This document shows, piece by piece, positions 3,308 through 36,282 of a stretch of DNA of 44,048 nucleotides. The notes under the pieces were generated by a model. That model was given only the letters and a program-made list of their open reading frames with translations. It searched no databases and was not told where the DNA came from. Origin of the DNA: a virus. Position numbers and translations under genes: made by a program. Position 1 is the stretch's first letter. The number at the start of each line of letters is the position of its first letter. The stretch spans positions 1-44,048 of the IMG/VR virus record IMGVR_UViG_3300043425_001171. One strand, written 5' to 3'.

Positions 3308-3956
3308 TTGGCGCGCGCAGTGCCAGCGTCCCGCCGTATCGTGCAGCGGCGGGAAGGACTCGACAGCACTGCTGCTGCTGACGATGCGGGTAGACCCGAC
3401 CATCCCGGTCTACCGCGCGGACCCACCGAATCCTCTGTCAGACCGGGCGGCGCACGTCGAGCGGATGCAGCGAGCGACGCCGGCACCGTGGGTGATCGTG
3501 CAGTACGAGTGGGACGTGGAGGCTGTCCTCGACAGCCGCGCGCGGTATCCGGAGGGCCTGAAGATCCGTCGGCTCGACGAGCGGCTGCGCGCCGACGGCA
3601 TCGATGGCGTGGCACTGGGCCTGCGCGCGCAGGAGAGCCGCGGGCGGACCTGGAACGCACTCACGCGAGGCGAGCACTACGTGGCGATGGGGCGCCGCGT
3701 CTGCACGCCACTGTCGACGTGGACCGCCGACGAGGTCGTCGGCTTCGTCATGGCGGAGGATCGGCTGCCTTTGAATCCGGTCTACACGAAGCTCGACGGC
3801 GCGCCGGACCTCAACCGCGTCCGCGACGGCACCTGGTATCCGCGCGAGACGGCCGACGCACACGGTTACCGTGGATGGCTCGCGCGTCACTACCCCGAGC
3901 ATATCGAGCAGTACGACCGCGCGCTTGCCGCCGCGGCACGAGGGAGCAATCGATGA
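3177..3956 (+). CDS. cysH: CysH-like adenine nucleotide alpha-hydrolase of type IV-B CRISPR cassette
   Basis: This 259-residue protein of the PAPS reductase/DndC-like PP-loop superfamily carries the nucleotide-binding SGGKDS motif (about residues 57-62), then LGLRAQESRGR (an ARRxES-like signature) and PLSTWTADEVVGFV. The C-terminal Cys motif of true PAPS reductases (ECGLH) is absent, so sulfate reduction is unlikely. A cysH-like gene is the typical companion of csf genes in subtype IV-B, with unknown role. I chose GTG 3177 because of GGAGG at 3163-3167, 9 nt upstream, and the GC-rich third positions from there on. ATG 3267 is the conservative alternative. The choice implies a 131-nt overlap with csf3. 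Confidence 0.82.
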   Translation: MPFLAQMHSERTRLARTHVRSLAALGRTRRMSMLVDRALRLIHDWRAQCQRPAVSCSGGKDSTALLLLTMRVDPTIPVYRADPPNPLSDRAAHVERMQRATPAPWVIVQYEWDVEAVLDSRARYPEGLKIRRLDERLRADGIDGVALGLRAQESRGRTWNALTRGEHYVAMGRRVCTPLSTWTADEVVGFVMAEDRLPLNPVYTKLDGAPDLNRVRDGTWYPRETADAHGYRGWLARHYPEHIEQYDRALAAAARGSNR

Positions 3957-33023: not shown

Positions 33024-33437
33024 TTACATAATGGAATCCGCCGAGGTCCGCAGTGCGCGGGTCGGGTACGCGACAGCGCGGATCACCTCAGCGATCCGGC
33101 GATCGACCGTCGCCCACGCCATGCGGCGCGTACGGGCGATGAACGCGTAGGAAAAGCCGCGGGCGAAGTGCATCTGCGCGACCTGGTGGTACTCGGCACC
33201 CAGCGCCCGCACGATATCGTCGACCTGGCTGCACTGAGTTTCGACGATAGGCGCCACATAGTTGTCGGTGGAGCGCGCGACGCGCTGCAGGTTGGCGAGC
33301 GTGCCCTGCCCGTAGCCCAGGCCGCCGCTCGTCCGCTGCATCAGCCAGCGCCCCCACAGCTCGAGGTCGTGTCGGGCTCGTTCGAGGCGCGCGCGGTGCA
33401 GCGTGTCGTCGTCAGGCGTCGGGCGTCGGTTCGTCAT
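33024..33437 (-). CDS. Q-like late antiterminator / late gene activator (137 aa)
   Basis: The start is ATG 33437 (MTNRRPTPDDD). The product contains LERARHDLELWGRWLMQRTSGGLGYGQG, a Q-family N-terminal signature, and VDDIVRALGAEYHQVAQMHFARGFSYAFIARTRRMAWATVDRRIAEVIRAVAY, a sigma region-4-like HTH. Position at the end of the replication operon, followed by a hairpin and then 26 kb of late genes, matches the lambda Q role. The AT-rich minus-strand TATGTAAT overlapping its stop codon could be a late promoter -10. Alternative: a sigma-like activator of late promoters. It overlaps the 65-aa gene by 26 bp. Confidence 0.75.
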   Translation of the reverse strand: MTNRRPTPDDDTLHRARLERARHDLELWGRWLMQRTSGGLGYGQGTLANLQRVARSTDNYVAPIVETQCSQVDDIVRALGAEYHQVAQMHFARGFSYAFIARTRRMAWATVDRRIAEVIRAVAYPTRALRTSADSIM

Positions 33438-33609
33438 CGCGTGCTCCGCAGCGCGGCCACCAGGTGCCGAGCTCGTGGCCGCCCTCAGCGGCCCAGAAGT
33501 GAGGCCGGCCGCGCAGGCCGGATCGGATCGCGCCGTTGATCTGCTGCTCGCCGAACGCCGCACGCAGGTCGTCGACGAAGGCAGCCACCTCGGGCATCTG
33601 GTCTCGCAT
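33412..33609 (-). CDS. Small hypothetical protein (65 aa)
   Basis: The product MRDQMPEVAAFVDDLRAAFGEQQINGAIRSGLRGRPHFWAAEGGHELGTWWPRCGARDDEPTPDA has the pattern (FxDxLRxAFGxxxInxxIrxGlrGxPxFxAxExGxexGT) of small proteins found before Q in phages of GC-rich Proteobacteria. I start at 33609, since the earlier ATG at 33630 overlaps an iteron-like repeat. Function is unknown. It is first after the origin candidate. Confidence 0.72.
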   Translation of the reverse strand: MRDQMPEVAAFVDDLRAAFGEQQINGAIRSGLRGRPHFWAAEGGHELGTWWPRCGARDDEPTPDA

Positions 33610-33622
33610 CGAGCCGCTCACC

Positions 33623-33885
33623 TTCCACACCTCAGCGCGGTGTGGACAGGGTATGGAGCCCGGAGACCCTCATGGATGCTGACTCTTCCATACCTTCCAT
33701 ACCTTCCATACCCAAAAAGCGGGGTGGGCGCGCGCGTACGCGTACGCGCGGGCAGGTGCGCGCCCCCGCGCCTGTGCGCGCCTCCGCGCGGCGAGGTATG
33801 GAAGGTATGGAGGGTATGGAACCTTCGTTGAAAATCAGGCACTTGGGAGTCCACACCTCCCGTCCACACCTGCAGGGTATGGAAG
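33623..33885. repeat. Iteron array with central 20-bp palindrome: candidate replication origin
   Basis: The 9-mer TTCCATACC occurs three times in tandem (33686-33694, 33695-33703, 33704-33712). Its inverse GGTATGGA(A/G) occurs three times in tandem (33795-33821) and singly at 33650-33658 and 33876-33884. Degenerate copies (TCCACACC/GGTGTGGA) lie at 33623, 33640, 33850 and 33862. Between the two arrays lies a perfect 20-bp alternating palindrome (33731-33750) within a GC-repetitive stretch prone to Z-DNA. The region has no credible gene and abuts the primase-helicase gene. Lambda-type phages place origins beside or inside their replication genes. Confidence 0.6.
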
Positions 33886-36282
33886 TCAGATCGGCAGCGG
33901 ATCACGGTCCCCTCCCGATTCCTGCTGCGCGTGCGTGAGCTCGGACGACGCCGCCTTTCTGGTGGGCGGCCTGTACCAGAAACGGACCATGCCGTTTCGA
34001 CGCTCGACGCGCGTGCAGCCCAAGGCCTTCAGCGCGTTTCCGACCCGAGTCTGGACGTCCCGGGTCAGCTTGGAATAGTCGATCTTGAGGCCGTCAGCGG
34101 CAGCCTCGGCCAGCGAGAAGTCGGCCGTCCGTGAGTAGACCCAGTCGTGCAGTGCGTCAACGTAGCCCTCAGACTGCTGGCGGGCCAGCTGCTGCGGATC
34201 GAACAGCGTGCGCTGCTGATCGCGGTCCGGATAGCACGGCGAGCCCTTGCGGTACTCGACCGAGGCCTCGGCGAACAGCTGATCACGCACGGCCGCCAGG
34301 CCCATCAGGTTCACCTCGGTCACCTCGATCGGCCAGAACCGGCGGCCGCCCGTGGGGTCCCGCAGCCACTCCCACTGATTCGTGGTGCCCGCGAAAACGA
34401 CCTGCCGCGGCAGACGGATCTCGCGGCGCCCGTAGACGGGCCGAAACTCGTCGACCTGGCGCGAAAGGAAGGACTTCTGCTTGGAGCTCTCAGCACGCGA
34501 GAGCGAGTCGAGCTCGGCGATCTCGTAGAGCCAGGCGCCCTGCAGCGCGGTCATCGCGTCCTTCTGCTGCAGGTCGAGGTCGGTGTCCTTGAACCACCCA
34601 CCGCCCAGCACCCGCAGCGCCGATGACTTGTAGATGCCCTGCTGGCCCTCGAGCACGAGGCAGTAGTCGAACTTGCAGCCCGGCTCCATCACGCGCTTCA
34701 CCATGCCGATCAGGAAGAAGCGCGCCACCAGGCGGGTGTAGTCGGTCCCGACGACACCGAGGAAGTCGGACAGCCAGTCGTCGATACGCGTCGTGCCGTC
34801 CCAGGTGAGGCCCTCGAGATAAGTGCGAACCGGATGGAACGCGTTCTCGCGCGCGATCACCTCGACGGTCTCGGCCACGAGCGCGGACGACGGCGTGAAG
34901 CCCTGCGCGACGGCGAGCCACATCGCCGTGCGGGTGTCGTCGGTCGACTCCCACTCGCCGATCCGCTCCTCGCCACCGTAGGGCGGCGCCTGCAGCTTCA
35001 CGATGCGCTGGGCGAACTCGTCGAACGCGATGACGCCGCGCCACGCCGGCGCGCGCATCAGCAGCGAATGGACGTTGGCCGTGCACGGGACGAGATCTCG
35101 GCCGCGCCACACCAGCGGGTAGAGGTCCGAGTCCGGAAGCCCGGGCGGGCCTGCGCAGCCCGCTGCGACGACCTCGCCGCCGCCTCCCTCGCCTGCCCGC
35201 GCAGCTCGCGTCGGTGCGGAGGCCTTCGGCGCGCGCTGGTGGGCCGCCAGGTACTCCACGACCCGCTCGCGCGTCCAGCCCTCGGCGATCGCGTCGGCGA
35301 CGTCCCAGCCGTCCGCACGCTCGCCCAGCGGCTCGAGGTCGAGAATCGTCACCTCGCACCCGAGCTCGAGCAGCTGCTCAGCGATCGCCTCCATGGCCTT
35401 GATGCCGGGCTGCGCGTGCGCAGGCATCAGCGCCCCCGCCTTGTCAGCCTTGCGGTCGTGATCGGGCCAAAGAATGACCTTGCGTCCGGCGAGCGGCGAG
35501 AAGTCCGCCTTCTTGGTACCGTTCGCACCGCCCGGCCAGGTCAACACCGGGCGCGCGCCGGCGAGCAGTTCGTGCAGCGCATCGGCGCACTTCTCGCCCT
35601 CGACCAGGATCACGCATGGCGCGGCATCGCCGGCAAGCCTGGGCAGCCCGTAGAGCGGCCGCGGCTCGGGCAGATGCACGCCGTGCCACTTGAGCTCGCC
35701 GGCTGCGTTCTGGCACCAGGACAGCGGTCGGATCTCCTTGCCGCCCGCGCTGGTCGCGTACCTGCAGATCACATTGAGCAGCGCGCCATCGATCGACCGG
35801 TACTCCCACGACGCAGTGGGGAGCTCGTTGCGGTATCGATGTGACAACGCTCGGCGGTAGTCCGGCGCGGCCTCGGGTACCGGCACGATTGGCACCCATT
35901 CCGACTTCGGCTTCGCCGGCTCGGGGCGCGTATGCGAAATCGCCGGCGGAGGCGCGGCCGAGCCGCGATCGTCGTCGCGCACGAAGCCCAGTTGCCGCGC
36001 GGCATCGATCATGCGGCAGCCGTGCATCGCAGCGTACAGGGCCAGCAGGTCGCCGCCCACCTCGCCCGCGGCAAAGTCGCCCCATTGCCCGGTGACGAGG
36101 TTGATCGAGAGCGATCTGCCAGAGTCGCCGCGCAGGTTGCCGACCTTCCACTCGTGCCCCTCGCGCTTGCCGGCCGGTAGCCACTGCGGAACGAGCTGGT
36201 CCGCCCGACCCAGTAGATCCCGCGCGATGGCCGCGAAGTCGACGTCCCGGCGGCCTGAGGCCGCTCCTCCCCTGGTCGGCAT
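33886..36282 (-). CDS. Primase-helicase with TOPRIM-like and VirE-type domains (798 aa)
   Basis: Residues 15-100 form the zinc-less primase N-terminus. TOPRIM-like motifs lie at 223-236 (CVILVEGEKCADAL) and 270-280 (ILWPDHDRKAD). From about 420 a VirE/D5-like helicase domain begins with FDEFAQRIVKLQAPP. It includes the Walker A GQQGIYKSS (546-554), Walker B YEIAELDSL (586-594), a sensor region (PVYGRREIRLPRQVVFAGTTNQ) and the final FWPIEVTEV. The C-terminus (about 740-798) is a helical basic segment. It primes and unwinds phage DNA. Directly downstream lies the iteron origin candidate. Translation starts at ATG 36282. Confidence 0.92.
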   Translation of the reverse strand: MPTRGGAASGRRDVDFAAIARDLLGRADQLVPQWLPAGKREGHEWKVGNLRGDSGRSLSINLVTGQWGDFAAGEVGGDLLALYAAMHGCRMIDAARQLGFVRDDDRGSAAPPPAISHTRPEPAKPKSEWVPIVPVPEAAPDYRRALSHRYRNELPTASWEYRSIDGALLNVICRYATSAGGKEIRPLSWCQNAAGELKWHGVHLPEPRPLYGLPRLAGDAAPCVILVEGEKCADALHELLAGARPVLTWPGGANGTKKADFSPLAGRKVILWPDHDRKADKAGALMPAHAQPGIKAMEAIAEQLLELGCEVTILDLEPLGERADGWDVADAIAEGWTRERVVEYLAAHQRAPKASAPTRAARAGEGGGGEVVAAGCAGPPGLPDSDLYPLVWRGRDLVPCTANVHSLLMRAPAWRGVIAFDEFAQRIVKLQAPPYGGEERIGEWESTDDTRTAMWLAVAQGFTPSSALVAETVEVIARENAFHPVRTYLEGLTWDGTTRIDDWLSDFLGVVGTDYTRLVARFFLIGMVKRVMEPGCKFDYCLVLEGQQGIYKSSALRVLGGGWFKDTDLDLQQKDAMTALQGAWLYEIAELDSLSRAESSKQKSFLSRQVDEFRPVYGRREIRLPRQVVFAGTTNQWEWLRDPTGGRRFWPIEVTEVNLMGLAAVRDQLFAEASVEYRKGSPCYPDRDQQRTLFDPQQLARQQSEGYVDALHDWVYSRTADFSLAEAAADGLKIDYSKLTRDVQTRVGNALKALGCTRVERRNGMVRFWYRPPTRKAASSELTHAQQESGGDRDPLPI

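Follow-up and report, generated by a model that had tools for sequence, protein, structure and literature searches.

An ordered array of 9-bp sites adjoining a primase-helicase gene as the probable replication origin of a phage

The stretch of about 320 bp that separates the Q-like gene (33024-33563) of this phage from its primase-helicase gene (33886-36282) is, judging from the sequence and with a probability that we put at roughly 0.9, the replication origin, and the product of the adjacent primase-helicase gene is the initiator. The design, an ordered constellation of short sites on both sides of a core, recurs in dozens of phages beside the same replication gene, and the word that makes up the sites differs between phage groups. 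A preliminary description of this DNA had called the stretch a probable origin; the conserved layout, the constant linkage to the helicase, the co-divergence of the word with a DNA-binding domain, and the same gene-origin arrangement in studied relatives all support that assignment.

The array and the adjacent gene

In the window (the entire stretch of 44,048 nucleotides analyzed here), the 9-mer TTCCATACC has 12 sites when up to 2 mismatches are allowed and the central CC is kept. Their layout, ><<>>><<<>><, is exactly palindromic, that is, identical to its own reverse complement, with gaps of 27 bp between the outer and inner sites on both sides and a core of 82 bp. The features of the array and of the adjacent gene are as follows:

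33623-33884, no strand: palindromic constellation of 12 sites; the same layout class is found in 66 other modules
33623-33631, plus strand: outermost site TTCCACACC, 1 mismatch
33639-33647, minus strand: outer site GTCCACACC, 2 mismatches
33650-33658, minus strand: outer site CTCCATACC, 1 mismatch
33659-33685, no strand: 27-bp spacer on the helicase-distal side; a GARACCC-like family motif fits near its outer end
33686-33712, plus strand: inner array of three exact tandem 9-mers (33686-33694, 33695-33703, 33704-33712)
33713-33794, no strand: core, 82 bp, 80% G+C
33731-33750, no strand: 20-bp perfect palindrome CGCGCGTACGCGTACGCGCG within the core
33795-33821, minus strand: inner array of three tandem inverse 9-mers (33795-33803, 33804-33812, 33813-33821)
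33822-33848, no strand: 27-bp spacer on the helicase side
33849-33857, plus strand: outer site GTCCACACC, 2 mismatches
33862-33870, plus strand: outer site GTCCACACC, 2 mismatches
33876-33884, minus strand: outermost site, exact, adjoining the stop codon of the helicase gene
33886-36282, minus strand: primase-helicase, the proposed initiator, with a DnaG-like N-terminus, Toprim primase, VapE helicase and C-terminal winged helix
33958-34140, minus strand: C-terminal winged helix (about residues 715-775), the proposed reader of the 9-mer, from the model and co-variation
34204-34818, minus strand: VapE-like helicase domain (residues 489-693; PF05272, E 9e-75; hexamer 7pds)

The location of the array in a gene-free stretch adjoining the primase-helicase gene was confirmed, and its arrangement is more ordered than first described. 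The opposed tandem triplets are present, the three forward copies being exact and the middle inverse copy, CTCCATACC, carrying one mismatch; the extra copies, initially given as two plus four degenerate ones, come to one exact site (33876) and five degenerate sites (two with one mismatch and three with two). Sites with at most 1 mismatch number 9 in 323 bp, whereas first-order Markov copies of this region (n=5000) averaged 0.04 and never exceeded 2, and the 11 matches in the window were never attained by whole-window shuffles. The ~320-bp stretch gave no match to an Rfam family and no recognizable sigma-70 promoter or terminator pattern, no DnaA box was found near the window array, and GC skew, a check named beforehand, does not turn at the array site.

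The DnaG-like N-terminus and Toprim primase of the adjacent gene product match 1d0q (E 4.5e-6) and the T7 gp4 and DnaG folds (Z ~13). Residues 385-778 match 7pds, the structure of PriRep1, a six-chain helicase, with dsDNA, with Z of 32.5 and rmsd of 4.2 over 389 residues, PriRep1 being the best structural match; the profile match of the helicase part to 7pds has an E-value of 1.5e-72, and the SaPI5 primase-helicase structures 7ola and 7om0 match the window helicase as well. The C-terminal 104 amino acids alone, used as a query, gave no phage match, and a Foldseek search with the winged-helix model yielded no single significant match, many of the matches being to winged-helix or related DNA-binding domains. 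A CHC2-type zinc-finger motif is degenerate in the window helicase and in most of its relatives and apparently intact (CCPFH...CFGC) in the helicase N-termini of two loci (L014, L052). At the opposite end, helicases of the array group have short tails resembling the C-terminal tip of SSB (for example DDDDIPF, DGIPF, DEDAIPF; loci L022, L030, L067, L075, L104 and L119; DRDPLPI in the window, 33886-33930, minus strand), which, by this resemblance, might recruit host SSB partners.

Recurrence of the module and variation of its word

A search of IMG/VR and GTDB genomes with the exact 18-mer TTCCATACCTTCCATACC, in which selection was on DNA only, yielded 66 further modules, 46 in viral contigs and 20 in genomes, whose helicases show 53 different C-terminal sequences, several loci being near-copies, so that the locus counts exceed the number of independent lineages. 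Matches of the 18-mer in coding DNA, including many of the genome matches, were set aside as chance after reading (L017, L019, L021, L024, L028, L032, L033, L047, L049, L050 and L057 among them). In all 66, the module sits at the 3' end of a primase-helicase gene of the VapE type whose product is 34-58% identical to that of the window, nearly all within about 40 bp of the gene end; two more modules (L015, L038) are located at contig ends, and the former still shows a helicase C-terminus. Phage relatives with the module are found in Betaproteobacteria: the genomes involved are labeled as members of this class or as unclassified proteobacterial or bacterial bins, and the taxa include Nitrosomonas, Methylophilaceae, Methylovorus, Methylobacillus, Dechloromonas, Rhodoferax-type Burkholderiales, Accumulibacter, Lautropia and others. 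BLAST searches of phage and plasmid records, queried with the entire stretch or with a consensus of half a module under a low-complexity filter that may hide tandem repeats, found no relative.

The most common layout among the modules, >><>>><<<><<, is itself palindromic. Three left inner sites are present in 58 of 65 modules, and the spacer is exactly 27 bp long in 53 of 65 on the left and in 43 of 65 on the right; in 13 more, the right spacer measures 35 bp, the outermost inner site being offset by one base (GGTATGGAGGTATGGAA) and hence uncounted. The spacer end that adjoins the outer site carries a recurrent motif, GCCTGAAARCC. Such fixed distances and orientations beside helicases that are only about half identical point to a defined nucleoprotein complex. 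The uniformity of the word among the 66 modules is partly by construction because the 18-mer search selects the TTCCATACC group; this selection does not account for the helicase linkage, the spacing, the outer sites or the alternation of the core. Three loci that lack outer iterons (L015, L027, L107) contain instead DnaA-box-like sites between the helicase gene and the inner array (TGTGGATAA ... TTATCCACA, about 41 bp apart, at 130-188 of L015), an independent hint at origin function. In Nitrosomonas communis Nm44 (L098, 2800-2850), the array stops inside the core, beyond which the DNA is different, perhaps because of an insertion.

Similar arrangements, built of other 9-mers, accompany helicases that are 26-42% identical to that of the window. 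The word is GGTCAYMCC in Marinobacter phage PS3 and TGTCCCACC in Pseudomonas phages LPPA36 and Haddon; each of the three has 11 sites in a similar layout and a helicase 40-42% identical to the window's in the aligned region. Staphylococcus phi2, Paenibacillus GIW2016 and APSE-7 have 8 to 10 sites versus 4 to 7 in shuffles, VarioGold and Aval have only a weaker opposed pair and an alternating stretch, and the more distant VapE carriers Bacteroides BK687P6 and Streptococcus satellite Javan323 show no array above shuffles at the same place. Among 73 helicase loci of viral contigs, a strict opposed-tandem pattern was detected downstream of the gene in 32, in none inside the helicase gene, and in none of the shuffled downstream sequences; the remaining 41 fall below the strict threshold, many of them with degenerate sites. 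Downstream of the helicase gene, L166, L171 and L182 carry extra three-site units (> < <) with a period near 57 bp, for 16-22 sites in total. APSE-7 (L149) has an annotated putative origin upstream of the VapE gene (888-988), unlike its iteron cluster, which is downstream of that gene (3488-3740).

Over 74 loci, iteron distance correlates with winged-helix distance when helicase-domain distance is removed (partial r 0.44, 0 of 999 permutations), against a partial r of 0.21 for the reverse (iteron versus helicase domain, winged helix removed), in a partial Mantel test that removes shared ancestry only in part. By this measure, the word appears to follow the winged helix at the helicase C-terminus more closely than the motor domain. 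For the TTCC group, the sequence of the helix is mostly TRDxQTR(V/I)G, ending with LGC; the corresponding helix in the TGTCCCAC group is mostly KPEQMRVG, ending with LGW. We propose the C-terminal winged helix, on the strength of the structural model and the co-variation, as the putative reader of the 9-mer. The preliminary description had named two separate winged-helix proteins (36293, 36564), as well as the helicase, as candidates for binding tests; the comparison does not support the first two because neither has a homologue near the other modules, 27 of which extend far enough, whereas the helicase, with its own winged helix, lies beside all of them.

The same comparison bears on the possibility that the stretch is an operator or antitermination region, where a phage regulator bound to the 9-mers would govern transcription in the interval from the replication genes to the Q-like gene. 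Such a role is suggested by the flanking genes, the helicase gene on one side and a Q-antiterminator-like gene (PHROG 79, E 1.6e-4) on the other, and by the small winged-helix genes upstream of the helicase gene. However, we consider it quite improbable: the stretch lacks a promoter or terminator pattern and the layout is strand-symmetric; the 36293 and 36564 winged-helix genes, a gene for a 194-aa protein and the tested repressor gene have no homologue near the 66 other modules (27 of which extend far enough); and the gene on the non-helicase side varies, whereas the arrays remain at the helicase gene. Out of six genes of the window that were tested, the helicase gene alone is common to all modules.

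The core between the inner arrays

In the window core, 68% of the steps alternate between purine and pyrimidine, and the longest alternating run is 23; for 53 distinct cores (mean 80 bp), the respective values are 73% and a median of 26. The alternation is above that of composition shuffles in all but a few of the 53, and the most strongly alternating segment of the locus is the core in 64 of 67 loci, the window core leading its own locus only narrowly (score 23 versus 22). The pairwise identity of the cores, 0.60 compared to 0.59, is no higher than in shuffles preserving nothing but the purine/pyrimidine pattern, which leaves this pattern and the composition as all that the cores have in common. 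The core is not AT-rich, and its stability predicted from nearest-neighbor energies is above that of its own locus in 50 of the 53. The alternation is present across G+C contents from 38 to 80%. In the Pseudomonas TGTCCCAC group, the alternating part of the core is GC-rich and gives way to an AT-rich part, and alternation over the whole core is often not significant; the rule is therefore strongest in the betaproteobacterial group.

The 20-bp palindrome, which the preliminary description placed at the center of the arrays, is real and perfect but lies 13 bp off their center of symmetry (33753.5). Together with the inner arms, which are 96% complementary over 27 nt, it could be taken to form a cruciform or an RNA hairpin that functions in termination, packaging or recombination. 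We regard such folding as very improbable, even more so than an operator. Across the 53 cores, the longest palindrome is 10.7 versus 10.2 in purine/pyrimidine-pattern shuffles and thus is not conserved, which tells against the cruciform first suggested; the hairpin energy of the cores averages only 0.77 sd better than in pattern-keeping shuffles; there is no Rfam match; and the outer sites retain an orientation of their own and a constant distance of 27 bp, as expected of protein sites. The window palindrome looks like a by-product of the alternation, and the cruciform, likewise, looks incidental. Altogether, the cruciform, an RNA element, a promoter or terminator, and the small winged-helix binders were rejected by shuffles, Rfam, pattern and homologue searches, respectively.

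The alternation may serve flexibility, a Z-transition or the preference of some protein. One possibility is that the core, predicted to be stable, might open via a left-handed (Z-like) or flexed state under supercoiling or protein torsion. More tentatively, and with the odds against it, these phages might represent a class of origins in which GC-rich alternating purine-pyrimidine DNA, rather than AT-rich DNA, is the opening element, and in which alternation alone is selected. Selection on alternation instead of the bases would be expected if the core must take up or pass through a Z-type or otherwise strained state, which would arise when two opposed helicase hexamers load. If true, such an opening element would make this a structure-encoded replication origin.

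Known origins and a proposed mechanism

SaPI origins contain an AT-rich core between two sets of iterons. The window module would, by analogy, work like an origin of this type, and it agrees with the SaPI scheme in every point but the AT-rich core, which leads to our conclusion on the origin and the initiator. The C-terminal domain of SaPI Rep recognizes an iteron origin directly downstream of its own gene, apparently as two hexamers, and both Rep and Cch2, the latter from SCCmec and with a putative origin, are self-loading helicases with iterons directly downstream of the gene (PMC7581432). Similarly, the window encodes a VapE/Rep-related helicase at the origin (PF05272, E 9e-75; 7pds), the array of multiple short iterons (12 x 9 bp) is directly downstream of its gene, with the last site abutting the stop codon, and the helicase has a C-terminal DNA-binding domain, putative in the window and assigned by model and co-variation. 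Unlike those of SaPI, the window sites, up to 12, are arranged as a palindrome whose spacers are fixed at 27 bp, the core is GC-rich (80% G+C) and alternating, and the primase is of the DnaG/T7-like Toprim type, fused to the helicase. Because the AT-rich feature is absent and iteron binding is putative, we do not file the module as SaPI-type.

The alpha protein of P4 combines on one polypeptide a primase, a hexameric helicase and, at the C-terminus, an iteron-reading winged helix. The window protein would share this combination, with a primase and a helicase from families other than those of alpha. Unlike the window, P4 uses two separated sites, ori and crr, and no copy of the P4 iteron GGTGAACAG within 1 mismatch was found in the stretch, which thus does not qualify as a P4-type origin. 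The iteron origins of plasmids (RepA/RepE/TrfA) consist of tandem repeats read by winged-helix initiators and, in this respect, resemble the module, where the winged-helix initiator is putative; in contrast to these origins, the window repeats are opposed rather than all in one direction, the stretch has neither a DnaA box nor an AT-rich region, and the helicase doubles as the initiator. Inverted-site arrays also serve in partition, packaging and recombination. The reading as a centromere-like partition site, or as a site for packaging or recombination, carried along with the replication module nevertheless deserves hardly any weight, given that the primase-helicase is the sole constantly linked gene among those tested and that relatives of the helicase use downstream iterons as origins (PMC7581432). 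A literature search, mostly of papers accessible without subscription, gave no report of the 9-mer array or of an alternating core in such phages.

For the module as an origin, we infer the following mechanism, from site binding and the loading of hexamers to melting and priming. The helicase would bind the 9-bp sites through its C-terminal winged helix, and the two opposed triplets would position two helicase hexamers face to face, with the 82-bp core between them; the outer sites, 27 bp off and oppositely oriented, would help to assemble or wrap the complex. The ATP-driven hexamers would then open the core and move apart, and the fused Toprim primase would lay the first primers, so that theta replication would begin in both directions.

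The module provides a sequence rule for finding the origin and the initiator in many VapE-type phages of Proteobacteria, including cultured phages of Pseudomonas and Marinobacter whose records carry no origin annotation at this place. The matched initiator domains and 9-mers make up a natural series that could be used to derive the recognition code of the winged helix. The conserved core, GC-rich, alternating and predicted to be stable, contradicts the usual expectation of easily melted, AT-rich DNA at an origin, and the question whether Z-prone DNA aids origin opening becomes directly testable in a small system.
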